From Nodosilinea sp. E11 (GTDB taxonomy: Bacteria > Cyanobacteriota > Cyanobacteriia > Phormidesmidales > Phormidesmidaceae): a DNA stretch of 64,000 nt. The stretch lies in assembly GCF_032813545.1 (NCBI RefSeq), contig NZ_CP136520.1, positions 986,001-1,050,000 of the forward strand, given 5' to 3'. Below, in pieces: positions 2,309 through 64,000 of this stretch (positions within the stretch are counted from its first letter, which is position 1; every line of letters starts with the position of its first letter). The notes under the pieces were generated by a model, which saw only the letters and a list, made by a program, of their open reading frames with translations, ran no database searches and was not told the origin of the DNA. A program made the position numbers and the translations under genes.

Positions 2309-3010
2309 TTAATCTGGTGCTGTTCGCTTTGAAAACCAAGCGTGAATGAAAAGGGTTTGGAAGAACAATACCGGAGTATCGAAGCCACCCGCTGTGATTA
2401 TTGCTTCGACTTCAGATGGTGTTGAAGTCGTGATGTGTAGATTCCAGCCAGCGCGCATCTTTTCGATGTCTTCCTCACTCCAGCCGGAGCCTCGCATTCG
2501 CAGCCAAACTTCAATTAAGCTCCGATAAACCGGAGGCGACATACCCAGAACCAAATCGGCATTGATCAAAACTCCACCAGGGTGAAGGCGTTGCGCAATT
2601 TGCCCGAAAAAGTGGCTCCGCTCTTCCGCTTGCTTTAAGAACTGAGAGACCAATAGGCAAGTCGCTGCATCGAACAGGTCAGATACGGGAAGTGAATCGA
2701 GATAACCTTCGTGGAACGTGCAACGTGGGGCGATGCCGCTTTCTTCGGCTTTTCGACGACAAATATCCAACATCGCAGGCGCAGGCTCGACAGCGGTGAA
2801 CTGCCATTGTGGAAAGGCTTGCGCCAGAGCGATCATTTCCGTTCCGGTTCCTGCACCGACGCACAGAATCCGTGCATCAGCCGGAAGTTCTGAGAAAATC
2901 AGGCACATTAACGAGAAGAGCGCCTCGCGCCCCACCAAAAGAGCAGTTTGATGGTCGTAGCAAGCAGCAGCTTTTTGGTCAAATAAAATGGGTGGCTGTT
3001 GATTTTGCAT
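2309..3010 (-). CDS. Class I SAM-dependent methyltransferase (integron cassette 3)
   Basis: The 233-residue protein has the Rossmann methyltransferase signature: motif I ILCVGAGTGTEMIALA at about residue 47, an acidic motif II (AVEPAPAMLDICRRK), motif III around LDSLPVSDLFDAATCLLV, and post-I segment LHPGGVLINADL. It resembles CmoA/YecO-like and ubiE-like small-molecule methyltransferases; the substrate is unknown. The gene lies between two attC-like sites and reads away from the integrase, so it is the gene of an 877-bp cassette. Base composition is nearer to the host than that of the other cassettes. Confidence 0.85.
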   Translation of the reverse strand: MQNQQPPILFDQKAAACYDHQTALLVGREALFSLMCLIFSELPADARILCVGAGTGTEMIALAQAFPQWQFTAVEPAPAMLDICRRKAEESGIAPRCTFHEGYLDSLPVSDLFDAATCLLVSQFLKQAEERSHFFGQIAQRLHPGGVLINADLVLGMSPPVYRSLIEVWLRMRGSGWSEEDIEKMRAGWNLHITTSTPSEVEAIITAGGFDTPVLFFQTLFIHAWFSKRTAPD

Positions 3011-3084
3011 GATGAACGCGAATGGGGCGGCGATTCATCATTTTACAGGTTGAATGTTGCGATAACATCTAAGCCGCGCGCAGC

Positions 3085-3171
3085 CGCCAATGTTCCCGCT
3101 CACCGGACGCAGATAACTTTTGCATCTTACCGACAATTTGAGTTCGTTCCGGTGCAGCGGGGTTGTTAGCC
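3085..3171 (-). other. attC-like recombination site 2 (STAND ATPase cassette)
   Basis: On the reverse strand the site runs from GGCTAAC (R''-like) to ATTGGCG, where R' would be GTTGGCG with one G to A change. The arms CCCCGCTGCACCGGA and its partner pair closely except for one extra G, the extrahelical base. Decisive detail: the 12 bases GAACAGGCTAAC at its R'' end are the exact complement of the first bases of the cassette it closes (GTTAGCCTGTTC, at the junction near 6575). That is what circular cassette excision and insertion predicts. Confidence 0.85.
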
Positions 3172-3206
3172 TGTTCAAAATGGTAGTTGCAAACTTCGTA
3201 GCTACT

Positions 3207-6020
3207 TTAAGTGCGAAGCTTTGAAGAACGTTGCCACAGATAGAAAAACAGAGCTACAAATAAAAGAGTAGTAGCTAGAATTATATGTCCTTGAATAAAG
3301 TTGGCTACAATAAATAAAGAGATGAGCATATAAAACGCAATTGAGAAAGATAGTAGTACATCAGAAGTTGAGTTTGAGTTTTCAGATAAAGAATTAATCG
3401 TTGATTGCTCTATATCTCTTAAAGAAGATTTTCTTGAACCTGATTTAGGGTCTGGAATGCTAGGGATTCTAAACTGTGGAACTAATGGATCACTGTGCTG
3501 AAAAACATACTGGCTACTTACAGAATCACAATGCTTTTCTTCATCTTTAATTCCCATTTCCTGAAATAAATCTTTTGCTTTCTGAATTGTTAAAAGCGCA
3601 TTAAATCCATCTCCGGGCTTTGCCAATGAAATTGTTTGAAGGAGATAAGACATAGCTTCATGATGCTTGTATTCTGTCTGTTTTGCAACCTCTATAGCTT
3701 GTTGATAAACTCTCTTTGCTTCCTCGAACTGCTGCATGAAGTCATAGGTGATTCCCAGATCGCATAAGATCCAAATCACGTTTCTTAATTGGGTGCTTTC
3801 ATATGCAATGTCGAGAGCCTGGTTATATAGAATTATTGCATCCTTGTACTCCTTCAATGATCGATAAGCATTGGCATGATGCATTAGAGTCCATGAAAGC
3901 CCTTTACGATCATTGATTTTATATAGGATTTCGAGGGCTTGTTTGTAATACTGAATTGCTTCTTGATATTTATTACAAGCTTGGCAAATGCGACCTAAAT
4001 CAGTTACGACCATTGCCTCCTGTCTTTGGAGACCAATATCTTTAGCAAGTTCTAAGGCTTTATTGTAAAAATCTATAGCATCTGTATATTTTTCTTGAAC
4101 CAGCTTGATGAAACCAAGACCAAATAAAGCATCATATTGATACCTTTTATTTCCAGCAGTTATTGCCAGTAGTAAAAGTTCTTGATGAACTCTTATGGCT
4201 TGTTCATATTCATGTTGCCATTTGTAGGAAACTCCTAAAGCAATAACAATAGACAGTTCTGTTTTCCTGTCCTTTTGAGTTTTTATTCCAGCGGAACGAT
4301 GACGCTTTAACGCTCGTTCATATGCGTCAATTGATTCATTGTATTGACCACGTTCAAAATAAGCATGCCCAAGACCTGAAAGCGTATCAACTTCTATATA
4401 ACGATCCCCTAGTTCTTCTGCAATTTTTAGCGAATATTGATAATGAGAAATTGCTTGATCAAAACTTCCAGGTTTATTGTAATAATCTCCTAGCCCCTTC
4501 ACGGCTAATGCTTCATGTTGCCTTTCTCTAATAATTCGAGAAATTTTAATTGCTTGGTTGTAGCAGTATACGGATGACTCTGCTTGAGCCACATCATGGA
4601 GGATACTACCAAGTCTATTCCAAACCGTACATAGCTCCTTCTGATACGATCCATTGTTTCTCAAAGCCTCTAAAAGAGCTTCGTACATATTGAATGCTTG
4701 TACAGTGTAACCTCTTAAATCTAAAAAATTTACGATATTCTCTACAGTGCTAAAAGCATCTAAATAATTTTCAACTTCATACTGATGGTAAAACAATTCT
4801 AGATTAGCCCTAATATCTTCAATATCAGACCACGGTTCGGGATTAAGTTTTTTGTTGTAATATCTTATCGCTGCTTGGTGATCTGTTAGTTGTATGCCAG
4901 AAATGCTTTTAAGATACCTTTGAATTGAAGGTTGAATATGATAAAACCCCTGCTCTTTAATTATTAGAGAGCGTTGTACAAGAGCTTCTAAAACTTTGAG
5001 TGCTTGAATGGGTTTTGTTTCAGAGGTTATTTCTTTTACTGCATCTCCAGAAAAGGGTAGACGATATACATTTAAGGAAACAAGGCTAGAGCGGCACTCT
5101 TGGGTTAATTTTTCTAAGTGACACTCTAAAACTCTTTCTAAACAGGTTTGTTGACCTCGATGTTCATCTGAAGCTTCCTTAAGAATTTTAGGAAATGTTA
5201 TTAAACCTGCCTGTTTTGCACGAGTTAAAATATTGTCATTTCCACAGTATAAACGTATATAACTCGCTGCCAATCGTAGGGCTAAGGGATGACCATCTAA
5301 CAATTCAGATATAGTTTCGAGAGCTGATTGGTCAGCCTCAGATTTTATTATGCTATTTCCTAACCTCAAGGATAAAAAACTAGCACCATCTATTTTGGGA
5401 AACCCTTTCAATGCAAGCCAATCTTCATACTGAAGAGAAGTCGGAATTTCTTGGCTTGTGAGAAGAATAACGCTATTCTTCCCCTGCTCCTTCCAGCAAC
5501 TGAAAAATTGCCGATACCCATCATCTTTCCATGCCTGGTTATCTAGAAAGACTTCTAAATTATCAACAACAATCAGATAGCGATATTGATTCAAACAACT
5601 GATTAGCTTGTCAACTTGCTCGATGATAGAAAGCTCTAAAAACTCTTCTAAAGATTCATTCGTCAAGGTCTTTAAAACTTGCTCTGCAAAAATTGAGAAC
5701 TCAGGAGCCTGCCTAACATCTGCCCAAAGCTGATTGTGAAATCGTAAATGTGCATACTTTTCCTGCGAAAATTGCTCAGAACTATTATTTGTCTGAGATA
5801 TTTTTTTGATAGCAGTGTAAAAATATGCAGCTAACCAAGATTTTCCAATTCCTCCAATACCCTGAACTCCAATTATCCTCAGTTGTCTGTTATGAAACTT
5901 CTTATGAATAAATGATTCATGTTCACGACGAGACTGCCACTGAGCTAAGTTCGGTGGATTTGTAATAATTCCATTGATACGGGTATTTTTCTTGGTCGGT
6001 GCCCCTCCCGACGACTCTAG
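3207..6020 (-). CDS. NB-ARC/TPR STAND ATPase, part after an in-frame stop (integron cassette 2)
   Basis: The frame is open for 937 codons directly after the TGA of the gene at 6021. It encodes a Walker A motif GIGGIGKS (5838-5861), a Walker B-like RYLIVVDNLEVFL, ILLTSQE (sensor-like) and GHPLAL, which is the NB-ARC order. About eight to ten TPR units follow, then two C-terminal membrane helices and a basic tail. Between the TGA and Walker A there is no ATG, GTG or TTG codon in frame, and a start at the first TTG (5666) would remove the P-loop. Together with 6021-6428 this forms one 1074-codon frame. Such STAND proteins often act in defence or signalling. It is AT-rich, unlike the host genes. 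Confidence 0.75.
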   Translation of the reverse strand, partial: LESSGGAPTKKNTRINGIITNPPNLAQWQSRREHESFIHKKFHNRQLRIIGVQGIGGIGKSWLAAYFYTAIKKISQTNNSSEQFSQEKYAHLRFHNQLWADVRQAPEFSIFAEQVLKTLTNESLEEFLELSIIEQVDKLISCLNQYRYLIVVDNLEVFLDNQAWKDDGYRQFFSCWKEQGKNSVILLTSQEIPTSLQYEDWLALKGFPKIDGASFLSLRLGNSIIKSEADQSALETISELLDGHPLALRLAASYIRLYCGNDNILTRAKQAGLITFPKILKEASDEHRGQQTCLERVLECHLEKLTQECRSSLVSLNVYRLPFSGDAVKEITSETKPIQALKVLEALVQRSLIIKEQGFYHIQPSIQRYLKSISGIQLTDHQAAIRYYNKKLNPEPWSDIEDIRANLELFYHQYEVENYLDAFSTVENIVNFLDLRGYTVQAFNMYEALLEALRNNGSYQKELCTVWNRLGSILHDVAQAESSVYCYNQAIKISRIIRERQHEALAVKGLGDYYNKPGSFDQAISHYQYSLKIAEELGDRYIEVDTLSGLGHAYFERGQYNESIDAYERALKRHRSAGIKTQKDRKTELSIVIALGVSYKWQHEYEQAIRVHQELLLLAITAGNKRYQYDALFGLGFIKLVQEKYTDAIDFYNKALELAKDIGLQRQEAMVVTDLGRICQACNKYQEAIQYYKQALEILYKINDRKGLSWTLMHHANAYRSLKEYKDAIILYNQALDIAYESTQLRNVIWILCDLGITYDFMQQFEEAKRVYQQAIEVAKQTEYKHHEAMSYLLQTISLAKPGDGFNALLTIQKAKDLFQEMGIKDEEKHCDSVSSQYVFQHSDPLVPQFRIPSIPDPKSGSRKSSLRDIEQSTINSLSENSNSTSDVLLSFSIAFYMLISLFIVANFIQGHIILATTLLFVALFFYLWQRSSKLRT

Positions 6021-6428
6021 TCAAATATTGATTGTGTTTTGTTGATTAAGGATTAAGCCTTGGTTTAGGACTCCAATTTTTTCTGCTACCTTAGCTAAAT
6101 TCACAACAGCACCTGGCTGATTTTGTAGTGTATTAGCAATCGCTTGTGTTGCTTCTTGAATTTCAGAATCATTTCTTGCCAGATCTTCTACTTTCTGAAT
6201 TAAAACAGCAGTTCCAAAGTTTTCTGGTTGCTGCTCTGCTAAGTTAGGCTGCTGAGAAACTTTCTCAATAGCAGTTGCAGTATTTGGGTCTTTTCGTCTC
6301 AAAGAAGCTAGAAATTGGCTGACCAACTTCCATGTACTGTCGCTGAGCTTTTCACCCGTTTTCTCTAAGGCTTTTGTAGCGACCAAAACAGCGATCGCCC
6401 CTGCTGACAAACTTACTGGATCAGTCAT
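6021..6428 (-). CDS. Helical N-terminal module of the STAND ATPase, ended by in-frame TGA
   Basis: The product is 135 residues, beginning MTDPVSLSAGAIAVLVATKA and ending ILNQQNTINI. This kind of small helical domain, with a hydrophobic first helix and an N/Q-rich end, is familiar at the N-terminus of cyanobacterial NB-ARC or NACHT-TPR proteins and probably acts as an effector or adaptor. The downstream ATPase is in exactly the same frame after the TGA (codon 136). So this is either a nonsense-split gene, a readthrough product (context TGA-CTA), or a separate small protein. The start is ATG; the cassette junction lies about 145 bp upstream. Confidence 0.7.
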   Translation of the reverse strand: MTDPVSLSAGAIAVLVATKALEKTGEKLSDSTWKLVSQFLASLRRKDPNTATAIEKVSQQPNLAEQQPENFGTAVLIQKVEDLARNDSEIQEATQAIANTLQNQPGAVVNLAKVAEKIGVLNQGLILNQQNTINI

Positions 6429-6568
6429 AGCTTACTTCTCAATATGATCAAGATTTTCTTCGTTATAGCTTCTTCTCAGTAGGAGGCTGTAATCCAGATC
6501 ACCTCCATCATAGATTTTTACTATGTAGTCTAAGAATACAAAGCACGTCCCACCCTAGAGTCAGAACA

Positions 6569-6654
6569 GGCTAACGGTGAAGTTGTGCGGCGGCAGACAA
6601 CACCGCACAAACACAGGTAGCCTCTGTACCGTCCGCACCAACATAGTGTTAGAC
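6569..6654 (-). other. attC-like recombination site 1 (first cassette)
   Basis: This 86-bp imperfect palindrome reads on the reverse strand from GTCTAAC (R'') to GTTAGCC (R'). The inner arms GTTGGTGCGG and CCGCACAAC pair with one unpaired G, as in the other two sites. The R'' side CTGTCTAAC is complementary over 9 bases to the start of the cassette it closes (near 7880). It lies 66 bp after the stop of the upstream cassette gene. Confidence 0.8.
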
Positions 6655-6720
6655 AGTCAATCACCAAAACATATATTATAAAAAACAGTTCACTACCAAT
6701 AGGAAAAGCTTAAACTGCTA

Positions 6721-7746
6721 TCAAGAGTTATCAGATTCATTACGCTCTTCAAATCGAGCCATAAGCTCCCAATATTTGTGAAGGTTGTCCGGCTCTAGCA
6801 AATGCTTTAAAGATTTTTCGGCTTCTCTTAAGTTGTCTGATATATCATTTGATATCGGCTTAAGATCCTGTCTCCTCTCAGTTTTAGAAAATTTAAATAG
6901 ATTTGTTTCATTAAGACTTAGATATGCATGAGAAACCATCCGCGCAATATGAGATAAATCGCTTGTATCTTTGCGACTTCTAAGCAAATAAGAATTATTG
7001 ATTTCTGTAATAAAAAGATTGGCAAGTCTTTGCTTCAGCCTTCCAACATCCTGAATTTCGTCTTTTGCGTTCTTAAAGAGATACGTCAAATATGCAATCC
7101 AGTGCTTCTCATTCCTTATAATATTTTTCAAGTTAGTTTCAATAATGCTGTAAAGATCTCTAAGTGATGACATTACTCTGTAAAACCCTGGTGCATCCAC
7201 TTGATATCGAGCCAAATCAGAGCTAATCATTACCGTCAAGTCATCAAACAAAGATACGGTATCAGAATGGATCGGTGTACTTATAAAAGGAAACCTTTCA
7301 ACAATATAAGCTTTTAACTCTTCTTCTGTAGCTGTATCGGATTTGAAGAAATCATTCAGAATATCTAACAGTGGCAACTCTAAATCTCTTGAGTGAATAA
7401 CACAGTTTACAACTTCATTAGCAAGCTCATAATTCACCAAGGCCTCTAGTCTTGAACACCTTTCTTGATTTAATAAAATACTTGTTCTCAAATTATTTAC
7501 ATACTCATCACGCTTTGACATTTGATAGAGGCGATAGCTTGCCAAAATAGATGCGGCTGATATGCCCACGCCCAAGGCAGTTGCGAACTGAGTCACAAGT
7601 TCCCAGGTCAAAATAAACTTCTGTTGCTGAGGCGGTAAATAAGTTGAAGGAGATTGAGCGGATGCAGAGATATTGCTTGAGCTTGCACCACCGAAAACCG
7701 CAAGAAAAAAGAGAACAATCAAAATTCTTTTGCTGGTATTAAGCAT
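6721..7746 (-). CDS. Unknown membrane-anchored helical protein (integron cassette 1)
   Basis: I do not recognise this 341-residue protein. It has a signal-like first segment (residues 7-30, ending SASAQS) and a second hydrophobic helix at about 48-70 (FATALGVGISAASILASYRLYQ). The rest is a long, mainly helical soluble domain with many charged residues and no enzyme motif that I can see. The layout (membrane helix plus helical domain) resembles DUF4760-like proteins, but I would not assign it. The gene is AT-rich, lies next to the attI-like region, and reads away from the integrase, so it is the first and presumably most recently inserted cassette. Confidence 0.7.
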   Translation of the reverse strand: MLNTSKRILIVLFFLAVFGGASSSNISASAQSPSTYLPPQQQKFILTWELVTQFATALGVGISAASILASYRLYQMSKRDEYVNNLRTSILLNQERCSRLEALVNYELANEVVNCVIHSRDLELPLLDILNDFFKSDTATEEELKAYIVERFPFISTPIHSDTVSLFDDLTVMISSDLARYQVDAPGFYRVMSSLRDLYSIIETNLKNIIRNEKHWIAYLTYLFKNAKDEIQDVGRLKQRLANLFITEINNSYLLRSRKDTSDLSHIARMVSHAYLSLNETNLFKFSKTERRQDLKPISNDISDNLREAEKSLKHLLEPDNLHKYWELMARFEERNESDNS

Positions 7747-7874
7747 AACGTTACTCCGAACCCTACTTTGTAACGCTTGAAATTAATAACGATGCTAATC
7801 CTAATGAGATATAAAAACAAGCCGTTTAAAATTATCGTAACGTTGAGATCGTGTTACGTCTGCGAGTACAGTCT

Positions 7875-8030
7875 GTCTAACAAGTTATTGGACTGATCTA
7901 ATCTGCCTATATCCCCACTACGGAGTAGATAGGCAGATTGTCTGCTGCATAATCACCCCTGGAGGGTAGATAGGCGGCGAATAATCTGCATATTAATCCT
8001 CTCAGGGGTAGATAGGTAGACAAGATCAGC
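7875..8030. other. Candidate attI region with inverted and direct repeats
   Basis: The reverse strand holds a core GTTAGAC (7881-7875) where cassette 1 begins. Beside it are an 11-bp inverted repeat (7900-7910 and 7929-7939) and three direct copies of GTAGATAGG at 7925, 7966 and 8008, 41-42 bp apart, near four helical turns. attI sites of known integrons carry a core plus extra integrase-binding direct repeats, which fits this layout. The promoter of the integrase (right) and of the cassettes (left) should also lie in the 7747-8101 spacer, but I cannot place them with confidence. Confidence 0.5.
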
Positions 8031-56307: not shown

Positions 56308-56550
56308 TCAATCTACCTGGCGATCGCGCCTCAGTAAGCTAAACACCTCTCCTTGCTCCGGGGTAATCAAAATTCCGGATGGCGGAATTGTCACGAACTG
56401 GCTCCACTCGCGCTGCTCGGCGTATCTGAGTAAATGCAGGTAGTTAATAGCCCCTCGCACCCCCTCTGGTGTGCCAATTACTGGCAAGGCGCAGGGGATC
56501 GAGACCTCCGAGTTCTTGAAGAACTCGGAGGTCTTGGCGGGTGGTAGCAC
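56308..56550 (-). CDS. Small hypothetical protein, possibly broken
   Basis: The segment GTPEGVRGAINYLHLLRYAE, then QREWSQFVTIPPSGILITPE and GEVFSLLRRDRQ looks like a small cyanobacterial family with the pattern TPEGVxGAIxYLHxLxxAE...GEVMSILxR. That part starts at about residue 26; the first 25 residues include a perfect 15-base palindrome (56503-56533) and are probably a non-native extension. The true start may be a TTG near 56480. Function unknown. Confidence 0.45.
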   Translation of the reverse strand: MLPPAKTSEFFKNSEVSIPCALPVIGTPEGVRGAINYLHLLRYAEQREWSQFVTIPPSGILITPEQGEVFSLLRRDRQVD

Positions 56551-61523: not shown

Positions 61524-61954
61524 GGCTTGTCAATCTCACCTTGAGGTGGCTGGGGCGACGGCAAACCTTTCGGGCCGCGCAAGTAGGTTTCTGAAAGGAA
61601 CCCGATTATGTTGTGTTTTACCCGTCCAGATCCCTGGGTTCTTCGAGAACCCAGGGATCTAAATCTCCTGCGCCTGGCAAACCCCAGGCCCCGGCCAGAG
61701 TGGTTGCGCCATTGGGTGACGATCCCGCGATCGGGGATTTTGATTAACCCCAGAGCAGGGCGAGGTGTTTAGCTTCCTACTGCGATATCGACAGTTGAAT
61801 TAGCGGCAAATCAGATCCCTGGGTTCTTGCAGAACCCAGGGATCTTCTCCATAGGCATTAGGTATCCTAGGGGCAGGCTCTCTTGGAGACGACGCCCAAT
61901 GACCTTACCAGAGTCAATACAAGAGGCTCAGCGTACAAGGGATTGGTAAAACCT
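61524..61954. repeat. Spacer with two copies of a perfect palindrome
   Basis: AGATCCCTGGGTTCT and its exact complement occur at 61628-61660 and 61813-61845, each with a three-base loop (TCG or TGC). They are about 185 bp apart. A similar palindrome, with other bases but the same GTTCTT-AAGAAC core form, lies at 56503-56533. A short open frame at 61899-61949 (16 codons, with GGAG upstream) is noted but not called. Confidence 0.65.
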
Positions 61955-62530
61955 ATGATCGCAAGGCTCAACTTCACCCCAATGGCTCCCCAGGAGTACC
62001 TGGAATGGGAATCTACCCAGGACGTTAAGTACGCCTATGTGAACGGGGAAGTCTTTGCTATGACGGGGGGGACGATTCCCCACAACCAAATTGCGCTGAA
62101 TTTAGCGTCTGCGCTTAAAGCCCATCTGCGGGGCAAGGGCTGTCTGGTGGTGATGGCAGATGTCAAGGTGGAGGTTTCTCAAAATGGGCCTTACCACTAC
62201 CCCGATGTGATGGTGAGCTGCGATGGGCGAGACCGCGACGCAATTAAACTCATTCGCTACCCCAGTTTGATTGTGGAGGTGCTGTCGCCGAGTACTGCTG
62301 ACTATGGCCGGGGCGACAAATTTACCCACTATCGCCAAATACCCACCCTGCAAGAATACGTTTTGATCAGTTCTGACAAAATTAGTGTTGATCGCTATCG
62401 CCGGATCTCGTCTCGTCGTTGGGATTTGCAGACTTACATAGAGGCAGAAACTCTGAGCCCTGCCAGTGTGGACTGGCAAGGCCCGATTGAACTGCTCTAT
62501 AAGGAGGTGCGGTTTATTGAGGAGGGGTAG
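61955..62530 (+). CDS. Uma2 family (DUF820) PD-(D/E)xK nuclease-like protein
   Basis: The ATG at 61955 gives MIARLNFTPMAPQEYLEWES, the family front. Seen: YAYVNGEVFAMTGGTIPHNQ, LVVMADVKVEV, YHYPDVMVSCDGRDRD (the active-site D), IKLIRYPSLIVEVLSPSTAD (with E), and FTHYRQIPTLQEYVLISSDK. These proteins are numerous in cyanobacteria; their role, possibly in mobile-element or defence DNA processing, is not settled. 191 residues, normal. The next genes to the right are AT-rich. Confidence 0.9.
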   Translation: MIARLNFTPMAPQEYLEWESTQDVKYAYVNGEVFAMTGGTIPHNQIALNLASALKAHLRGKGCLVVMADVKVEVSQNGPYHYPDVMVSCDGRDRDAIKLIRYPSLIVEVLSPSTADYGRGDKFTHYRQIPTLQEYVLISSDKISVDRYRRISSRRWDLQTYIEAETLSPASVDWQGPIELLYKEVRFIEEG

Positions 62531-62628
62531 AGATTGCGGGAGGAGGTGTTTAGCTACCTACTGAGCGACTGACAGCTGGGTTGAGCCTACAGAAGCAGAG
62601 TTTGGGAATTTTGAAACGTGTCATATAT

Positions 62629-63417
62629 TTAGATAATCCATCTTGAATGTTCAGAAATAGCTAGTGTATAGTCATGACCTGGCATTGCACCTCGCCTCAA
62701 CACCTCTTCCTCTGTAACCCAAATGCAATCGGAAATACCTGTTCGAATAGTATCTTGGAGAAAGCTTTCCTGCTCTCTATCTAAAATTACTTCATATATC
62801 TCTGCTACCAAAATTTCATAGGATTGCGAAAAATCTGAATACCGTATAGGATTTATATGCCTCTTTATAAATTGGTATTTAACAAAAGGGAAAAGTTCTT
62901 CTGGGAAGATTCTAGGCTTTACTAACTCCTCATAAAATTCTCTCCACCCGCAAATCTCTCGATTCTTTCTACTGTCAAACCATTTCATGAATTTAAGGAG
63001 ATACCTACCTTTCAATCGTATGCGCAGATCACGTTTGCTATCCGCATCAATTGGTATCAGATCATCATCTAGTGCATGAATTTCTTGAAAAAAACTGATC
63101 GAAGAATCATAACGCTTAAATACACCGCCGACAGGTTGAAACTGAGGAAATCTTTTCCCCCTAATTAATAAGTATTTGCCCTCAACCTTTATCCTGAATA
63201 GGTAAGAAATTGACATCCTGATATTTTTATCTCTATACAGCAGTCGCACTGAAATAAGCTTGTAATATTCAGAATTAACTACCAAAAGATCTGCTAGCAA
63301 AATTATTATTGATGAAATAACTCCTAGCACTACGCTTACAAAGTACGAGTTTGAGGAAACTAAAAGAGAACAAAGGGCTAGAAAAAGCAGCAAAATATAC
63401 AAAATAACTTTTGTCAT
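62629..63417 (-). CDS. Membrane-anchored SMODS-associated NUDIX-like protein
   Basis: Two membrane helices (residues 3-25 and 28-48) precede a soluble domain. It has ISYLFRIKVEGKYLLIRGKR, then FPQFQPVGGVFKRYDSS, and REFYEELVKPRIFPEELF. PVGGV with a downstream REFYEEL is the shape of the SMODS-associated NUDIX domain, found beside nucleotide-signal defence genes. It is AT-rich, unlike the host, and is divergent from a probable reverse transcriptase. The NUDIX box is incomplete compared with the usual GX5EX7REUXEEXGU, so its enzyme activity is uncertain. Confidence 0.65.
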   Translation of the reverse strand: MTKVILYILLLFLALCSLLVSSNSYFVSVVLGVISSIIILLADLLVVNSEYYKLISVRLLYRDKNIRMSISYLFRIKVEGKYLLIRGKRFPQFQPVGGVFKRYDSSISFFQEIHALDDDLIPIDADSKRDLRIRLKGRYLLKFMKWFDSRKNREICGWREFYEELVKPRIFPEELFPFVKYQFIKRHINPIRYSDFSQSYEILVAEIYEVILDREQESFLQDTIRTGISDCIWVTEEEVLRRGAMPGHDYTLAISEHSRWII

Positions 63418-63583
63418 TGTCGTCAGGCAGAAAGAGTAAGGGTAAAGTAAAGATGGTAGGAGCTAAACTAGTAAATAGTGCTCGCAACCATCTTGCTGCA
63501 ATACCGAATAAGTATAAATTATCAATTTAAGTTTCATTATTTTGTATATCATTTTTAGAGAATATTTGAAGCTAGGATTTTGG

Positions 63584-64000
63584 AATGAAAGTTACTAAAA
63601 GATTTCATATTCTTCGATCCAAAGATTTAGAGTCAGTATTTCATGTTCAGAATTTAGTTGATACTTGGCGAGGTGTTGTCCGTGATCAATTGCGCTCTTT
63701 GGACATACTAGATTTACATGATTATTATGATTTTAACTTTAACATTGAAGATAAGGCGTTGTTAATTCAGAAAAAGATTTTAGATGCTCAGTACAGAATT
63801 ACTGGACCTTTGATATATAAATTAGAAAAAAAATACGGTGTTTGTAGGCACATTTTGCTTTTGAGTCCTTCAGATGCATTGGTCTTACAAACAATAGTTG
63901 ACATGGGTTTAGCTAAGCAGTTGCTGAAGGCTCAACCAACAAGTAGGTCTTATTATACTAGAGATAGCAAAAACCCCAAAAAAATGCCCGATTGGCGGAC
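63584..64000 (+). CDS. Start of a probable defence-type reverse transcriptase
   Basis: The frame is open from ATG 63584 (ribosome-site-like AGGATTTTGG) to the window edge, 139 codons, so the C-terminus is missing. It reads MKVTKRFHILRSKDLESVFH, then WRGVVRDQLRSLDILDLHDY, KYGVCRHILLLSPSDALVLQ and QPTSRSYYTRDSK. The R-x-I-L-L-x-S-P-x-D segment followed by a short helix and a P-S-R-S-Y-Y block is like RT motif 1/2 of UG/Abi-type reverse transcriptases. The catalytic YxDD motif would lie outside the window. AT-rich, divergent from the NUDIX gene. Confidence 0.5.

Follow-up and report, generated by a model that had tools for sequence, protein, structure and literature searches.

We identified, in the genome of the cyanobacterium Nodosilinea sp. 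E11, a small AT-rich cassette in which a complete UG13a reverse transcriptase (RT) gene lies beside a divergently oriented gene for a 2TM-NUDIX protein. Both genes belong to known kinds (UG13a DRT; RTasNUDIX, a Sa_NUDIX 2TM effector), and the combination is one for which our searches found no second example. Our preferred reading, to which we assign a probability of about 0.48, is that a DRT4/DRT6-like self-sufficient, template-independent RT is here accompanied by a Cap16-like 2TM-NUDIX protein acting as accessory effector, the two making up a two-gene cassette in a defence hotspot.

Results

Organization of the locus

The window, that is, the whole stretch of 64,000 nucleotides analysed (G000:C7:986001-1050000, G000 being the Nodosilinea sp. 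E11 genome), ends within the RT gene, the remainder of which is read in the stretch L003 (G000:C7:1046001-1066000; L003 coordinates equal window coordinates minus 60000). The locus comprises the following features:

61883..62530, + strand: left Uma2-family gene (PF05685, 2.1e-37), left bound of the hotspot
62629..63417, - strand: 2TM-NUDIX gene, 262 aa, with Sa_NUDIX and two N-terminal hydrophobic helices; PADLOC RTasNUDIX; Cap16-like architecture
63418..63584, no strand: divergent intergenic region of 167 bp between the NUDIX and RT genes
63585..64000, + strand: 5' part of the UG13a RT gene inside the window (138 aa visible), open at the window end
L003:3585-5435 (G000:C7:1049585-1051435), + strand: complete UG13a RT gene, 616 aa, with its stop at window-equivalent 65435
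L003:5605-6249, - strand: right Uma2 gene, past the window edge (PF05685, 2.7e-31)
L003:17479-19903: psbD/psbC-like genes, named from the sequence by eye, downstream of the cassette

The original prediction had a NUDIX gene read leftward and an RT-like gene read rightward about 165 bp apart, both AT-rich in a GC-rich chromosome, and this layout holds: 167 bp separate the gene at 62629-63417 (-) from the one starting at 63585 (+), and GC content is 32%-40% in six 500-bp steps (L003:2501-5500) as against 50%-65% in the flanking steps. The AT-rich cassette contains the NUDIX and RT genes and no other gene, the next one following 169 bp after the RT stop. AT-richness is, however, not special to this locus, because all 56 RT loci for which 2 kb or more of flank was available, the window locus among them, had a lower GC content in the RT region than in the flanks (median difference of -0.14). 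Elsewhere in the window, a second AT-rich island (3001-8000; 36%-40% GC) encodes an 819-aa TPR-repeat protein and contains two ORFs without a Pfam match.

A complete UG13a reverse transcriptase

The assignment of the first ~139 codons to a UG/Abi-type RT is borne out by the complete gene. The PADLOC model RT_UG13a (DRT, PDLC03749) matches residues 4-613 of 616 over profile positions 3-588 of 589 (636 bits, E = 1.7e-191), and the runner-up models are UG21 (109 bits), followed by UG19, UG20, Drt8 and UG13b. The palm motifs sought past position 64000 are present: the catalytic aspartates are D171, D259 and D260 (motifs A and C), and motif C reads WMDD in place of YxDD. General-purpose models respond feebly to this protein, with a Pfam RVT_1 match to the full RT of 9e-5, below cut-off, and NCBIfam returning weak RT matches alone, far under the cut-offs; a phmmer search of the PDB gave nothing relevant. 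The 138-aa stub by itself had no RT match in Pfam, so that the initial guess was correct yet not demonstrable from the stub in that database.

From the GTDB genome collection, we gathered 60 RT-related loci, the final dozen or so of them distant, and picked 35 sequences for alignment, leaving out broken, partial and near-duplicate ones and retaining three partial sequences (L015, L021 and L024). All 35 share the motif A aspartate, an asparagine three residues further and the motif C MDD, whereas the residue before MDD varies (16 W, 10 F and 9 Y). A D-P-x-Y-like C-terminal end is common in the same alignment; its tyrosine is not invariant, and we do not claim it as a priming site. In a tree of 29 rows, the window RT groups with that of Nostoc foliaceum (support 99/97), the gene of which is truncated to 522 aa. 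The two belong to a ten-member clade (100/100) with hosts in Cyanobacteriota, Bacillota, Pseudomonadota, Campylobacterota and Cloacimonadota as well as a Leptospira plasmid, a spread that speaks for horizontal transfer of the UG13a RT. Seven of the 388 Cyanobacteriia genomes, the window genome included, carry the UG13-type RT family; the 25 other genomes of the window's genus gave no match, nor did the phage records searched. UG13-type RT genes at L011/L012, L015, L016, L025, L026 and L061 are split over more than one ORF or shortened and are apparently decaying. The literature searched describes no mechanism for UG13.

Predicted fold of a homologue

Structure prediction was carried out on the homologue from Bacillus sp. 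RO2 (L017; 604 aa, 40% identical to the window RT), with 35 sequences as input, and yielded a confident model (pLDDT 90.3, pTM 0.88), the C-terminal half of which (residues 295-601) is all-helical. Over most of its length, the model aligns with DRT6 (9wy8; Z 17.6, 443 residues, rmsd 4.1), DRT4 (9vdo; Z 15.8, 442 residues), UG15 (9l9s; Z 14.5, 448 residues) and AbiK (7r07; Z 14.0, 465 residues), the last being also the best row in Foldseek, and with partial cover to AbiA (8oz7; Z 14.1, 378 residues). By contrast, the ncRNA-using DRT9 (9vma; Z 15.7, 252 residues) and DRT2 (9c0i; Z 14.6, 256 residues) align over the RT part only, as do group II intron and DGR RTs, some of them with higher Z, up to 18.2. 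The predicted fold, an RT followed by a C-terminal helical repeat, thus resembles DRT4, DRT6 and AbiK, as judged on a 40%-identical homologue and bearing in mind that helical repeats score easily. With DRT4 (UG15) and DRT6 the homologue model shares this arrangement over ~440 aligned residues, at only 9%-13% identity in the structure alignment; with AbiK, AbiA and Abi-P2 it shares the overall fold (Z 12.7-14.1), the sequences being distant (12%-13% identity in the alignments). In the portions of the literature available to us, DRT4 and DRT6 are single-gene systems, as UG13a seems to be elsewhere, and are mentioned with no NUDIX neighbour, unlike the window locus. The corresponding portions on class 1 RTs report untemplated, protein-primed synthesis (PMC13174585, PMC13275509); by analogy, we infer that UG13a may do the same.

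UG13-type RTs look like stand-alone genes, with no recurrent partner and no detectable ncRNA, bearing in mind that a weak or diverged RNA might escape detection. Rfam gave no match over L003:1500-6500 up to E = 1, and the intergenic and downstream DNA of the window RT, compared with the other RT loci, reached E = 0.33 at best and nowhere fell below 0.3, although within the RT gene the closest relative shows 68% DNA identity over 937 columns. At L019, the RT has 29 bp free upstream and 20 bp downstream, and hence no room for a separate ncRNA gene. Promoter-like sites in L003:3200-3800 were at chance level (3 vs 2.8 expected).

The 2TM-NUDIX protein and its CBASS relatives

The neighbouring gene had been described as encoding a membrane-anchored protein with a SMODS-associated NUDIX-like domain, which agrees with a match to Sa_NUDIX (PF18167) at E = 1.7e-67 (227.7 bits vs a cut-off of 25; residues 65-262) and with two N-terminal hydrophobic segments by hydropathy (1-27 and 22-51); the same hydropathy rule gave one segment only in three of six plasmid homologues. 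G97-G98 and R159-E160-F161-x-E163-E164 are invariant in the seven NUDIX proteins aligned, and the REUXEE glutamates are present. The Nudix signature has a canonical spacing, from which this protein departs by an insertion of ~60 residues after G97-G98 that separates both halves of the signature. Nudix hydrolase activity is possible, judging by these residues. Folded from its single sequence, the protein reached a pLDDT of 42.9 and was left out of the fold search; phmmer against the PDB returned nothing.

The best PADLOC model of the window protein is RTasNUDIX (PDLC03809, filed under DRT; 6.3e-86, 285.6 bits, positions 4-234 of 234), as against 256 bits for the highest-scoring CBASS 2TM effector model. 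The six plasmid homologues, to which it is 29%-34% identical, score the other way: 314-464 bits with a CBASS model vs 172-199 with RTasNUDIX, so that CBASS-effector models are preferred in all six, by 130-271 bits. The original prediction knew of no described system with exactly this pair. PADLOC-DB files an RTasNUDIX model under DRT, and no other model scores higher with the NUDIX protein, so that a pairing of this sort is not without precedent and the statement is half correct. Neither the name RTasNUDIX nor reverse transcriptase, UG13 and NUDIX together were found in the literature searched. The window protein shares with the RTasNUDIX subfamily its top model and an adjoining RT gene, whereas a conserved linkage to UG13 was not seen, which speaks against a fixed UG13-NUDIX system but not against membership of the subfamily.

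The architecture, N-terminal hydrophobic helices followed by Sa_NUDIX, is that of Cap16-type CBASS effectors; Cap16 has been reported to exert its toxicity through oligomerization in the inner membrane, an effect that persists when its NUDIX domain is mutated (PMC10419184). We compared ten NUDIX neighbourhoods outside the window, taken from six of 39 plasmid records (L081-L086), a phage record (L087) and hits in Bacilli (L089-L091). A cyclase or nucleotidyltransferase gene precedes NUDIX on the same strand in nine of them, identified by annotation in L082-L086, by Pfam in L089 and L090 and by tblastn in L087 and L081; the L081 cyclase is split over two ORFs, and that of L087 is identical to the one in L082. 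No cyclase was seen in the neighbourhood of L091, where the NUDIX match is weak. Thus, all six Cap16-like plasmid homologues have a cyclase gene ahead of NUDIX, whereas the window NUDIX gene has none beside it, is divergent from the RT gene and scores best as RTasNUDIX. A tblastn search with eight NUDIX-linked cyclases, which recovered the cyclase in nine of nine control loci, found no relative in 94 kb around the locus (G000:C7:986001-1080000; window, L003 and L004). The SMODS model (PF18144) had no match in the window genome either, but it misses four of the five NUDIX-linked cyclases tested, which are DncV-like (PF21654, AGS_C), and the absence of a cyclase is therefore limited to these 94 kb.

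Occurrence of the NUDIX-RT pair

The original prediction was to fail if NUDIX and RT did not co-occur in other genomes, and within the reach of our searches they did not. Whole-genome profile searches found Sa_NUDIX in none of 22 other genomes or records with a UG13-type RT, a set of at most 21 distinct ones, as G183 and G401 (L009, L027) are apparently one genome with an identical RT, and from which the L018 genome was left out. Nor did phmmer and an iterated profile detect it in any of the 74 other loci of the 75-locus RT set, in which 67 loci have a clear RT and just 35 of these come with at least 5 kb of flanking sequence on both sides; for L005-L012, with flanks of at most ~1.5 kb, it is the whole-genome search that counts and not the neighbourhood search. 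The other UG13a loci thus differ from the window locus in having no NUDIX neighbour. The RTasNUDIX profile matched a single genome, that of the window, both among 388 Cyanobacteriia and among 63 genomes of the window's order, and three of the 250 genomes from the class to which the Bacillus relative belongs. No match was obtained in 291 genomes from the Nostoc relative's order or in 229 from the Variovorax relative's class; such entirely empty searches are not proof of absence. Altogether, a second NUDIX-RT pair was found neither in the 75 RT loci nor in the whole-genome searches (Bacteroidota being outside their scope), the plasmids or the phages, and the viral contigs searched yielded no confirmed relative. 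As adjacency itself prompted the study, no chance estimate is given for it.

In unrelated hosts, no protein family is repeatedly encoded right next to UG13-type RTs. Uma2 was considered as an RT partner and rejected, because among the 75 loci its profile hits are limited to L003, L015, L016 and L009/L027 (the same Pseudanabaena RT twice) and because Uma2 is widespread in the genus (25 of 26 genomes). A plasmid-borne UG13a RT of Leptospira weilii is preceded, 162 bp upstream, by a gene (L013:5239-5832) the 197-aa product of which has two hydrophobic segments; this protein has a weak Mrr-like nuclease match (20.7 bits vs a cut-off of 21) and is perhaps another membrane effector beside a UG13a RT, in this one case.

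A hotspot bounded by Uma2 genes

The NUDIX-RT cassette is flanked by two Uma2 genes, the right-hand one being followed in the window genome by a dynamin-like gene, and we compared stretches from 11 other genomes of the genus. Two of these have both Uma2 genes with other cargo between them. In G023 (L109:2786-7942), the Uma2 DNA is 91.5% and 89.4% identical to that of the window genome, the second stretch continuing through the dynamin-like gene, and the 5.2-kb cargo encodes LeoBC (3.7e-113) and LeoA (3.5e-122). In G008 (L120:2331-6675; Uma2 DNA identity 83.5% and 90.2%), the 4.3-kb cargo encodes Pepco, a caspase-FGE protein and PD-Lambda-1 (3.8e-78). The right-hand Uma2 alone was seen in three further genomes, near an AAA_15/OLD-like ATPase in G010, near a dUTPase and a dCTP-deaminase-like protein in G019 and with PIN, FtsK/PD-DExK and KAP-like genes within ~5.5 kb in G016; in the remaining six (G004, G009, G011, G012, G017 and G025), the dynamin-like gene is present and Uma2 is unmatched in the compared stretch. 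An empty site, with the two Uma2 genes and nothing between, was not found in any genome. On the evidence of three genomes, the NUDIX-RT cassette looks like one of at least three alternative fillings of a defence hotspot.

DNA of the window-type Uma2 occurs mostly at several places per genome. The right-hand Uma2 and the dynamin-like gene are separated in G008 and G019, being on different contigs or more than 40 kb apart, so that the bounded unit does not have a fixed location and may itself be mobile. Beside the right-hand Uma2 of these two genomes (L120 and L119), an acetyltransferase-like ORF, named by eye, replaces the dynamin-like gene.

Two repeats lie close to the left Uma2 gene. A 43-nt repeat occurs at window positions 61755-61797 and 62536-62578 (77% between the two), as well as at 56308-56550, with a copy at G000:C7:5427697; it overlaps an ORF reading ...GILITPEQGEVFS..., similar ORFs are found near the hotspot in L108, L118, L119 and L120, and repeat and ORF are possibly a small mobile element. 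Between alaS and the left Uma2 gene, another sequence, 34 nt long and containing a perfect 15-bp stem, is present in two copies (61627-61660 and 61812-61845).

Discussion

The locus had been put forward as a candidate defence system, and much of that stands: the RT is of the defence-associated UG/Abi kind, its neighbour is a membrane 2TM-NUDIX protein and the site is an apparent hotspot. Conservation of the pair in other genomes was not supported by the searches made. The core of the two-gene arrangement that we favour would be a UG13a RT working alone, like DRT4/DRT6 and the Abi polymerases, and making DNA attached to itself with no RNA template. During infection, the product of the RT or a state of the enzyme would turn toxic or serve as a signal. 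By analogy, the NUDIX domain may sense or hydrolyse a nucleotide or the RT product, and the NUDIX helices may oligomerize and damage the inner membrane, as reported for Cap16; on this comparison, the 2TM-NUDIX protein is probably an accessory effector. Intact RT catalytic residues, the fold of the homologue, the score of the NUDIX protein with RTasNUDIX, the position in a hotspot and the lack of a cyclase in 94 kb argue for this arrangement, whereas the missing second example and the divergent genes, as against NUDIX following a cyclase on the same strand in nine loci, tell against it; the structural support is limited by the modelling of a 40%-identical homologue and by the higher Z of group II intron and DGR RTs over the RT part. 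We put functional coupling of NUDIX and RT at about one half, favoured because of the RTasNUDIX subfamily, the shared small AT-rich cassette and the absence of a cyclase nearby.

Coupling could take another form, in which the RT would have taken over from the CBASS cyclase the switching of a Cap16-like 2TM-NUDIX protein, and template-independent DNA, or its loss on infection (cf. retrons, Panoptes), would hold or release a pore-forming NUDIX protein; this we consider rather unlikely. In Panoptes (OptS/OptE), a gene for a polymerase is described next to one for a 2TM effector (PMC12657218), an adjacency shared with the window locus; the proteins are mCpol and S-2TM-beta there and RT and NUDIX here, so that the analogy is one of logic only. 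A serious contender, at less than even odds, is that two independent defence genes share one hotspot, the UG13a DRT acting by itself and the Cap16-like effector gene being an orphan. The divergent orientation fits such independence, as do the lack of Sa_NUDIX in the 22 other UG13-type genomes and records, the lack of any recurrent neighbour of UG13-type RTs in unrelated hosts and the different cargo filling the interval in other genomes. It sits poorly, however, with a NUDIX protein that prefers RTasNUDIX over the CBASS models, unlike all six plasmid homologues, with a cassette that contains no further gene, with the absence of a cyclase within 94 kb and with the lack of an obvious use for a lone toxic effector without a switch.

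Two further explanations appear far less probable. The NUDIX protein could be a CBASS effector the cyclase of which has been lost or is encoded elsewhere in the genome, the RT being an unrelated neighbour: a cyclase gene does stand ahead of NUDIX in nine of the ten neighbourhoods outside the window, and a genome search with SMODS only would miss a distant DncV-like enzyme. Yet the surrounding 94 kb contain no relative of the NUDIX-linked cyclases, SMODS has no match in the genome, the NUDIX gene is intact and its top PADLOC model is RTasNUDIX and not a CBASS effector, which makes this a poor bet. We hold it just as doubtful that the RT is RNA-templated in the manner of DRT2/DRT9, its ncRNA having been overlooked in one of the two spacers (167 bp between the genes, 169 bp downstream). 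Both spacers are of possible ncRNA size, but neither matches the flank of a relative or, as far as Rfam goes, a known RNA, the L019 spacers are far shorter (29 and 20 bp), and the fold of the homologue model is of the RT-plus-helical-repeat kind.

If, as in the two-gene reading preferred here, the genes work together, a CBASS-type membrane effector would be under the control of a DNA-making enzyme and not of a cyclic-nucleotide cyclase, and the DNA products of protein-primed DRTs would become testable as feed for a separate effector. Even without coupling, the locus offers an intact UG13a gene as well as a cyanobacterial hotspot, mapped within one genus and bounded by Uma2, the defence genes of which can be surveyed from strain to strain.
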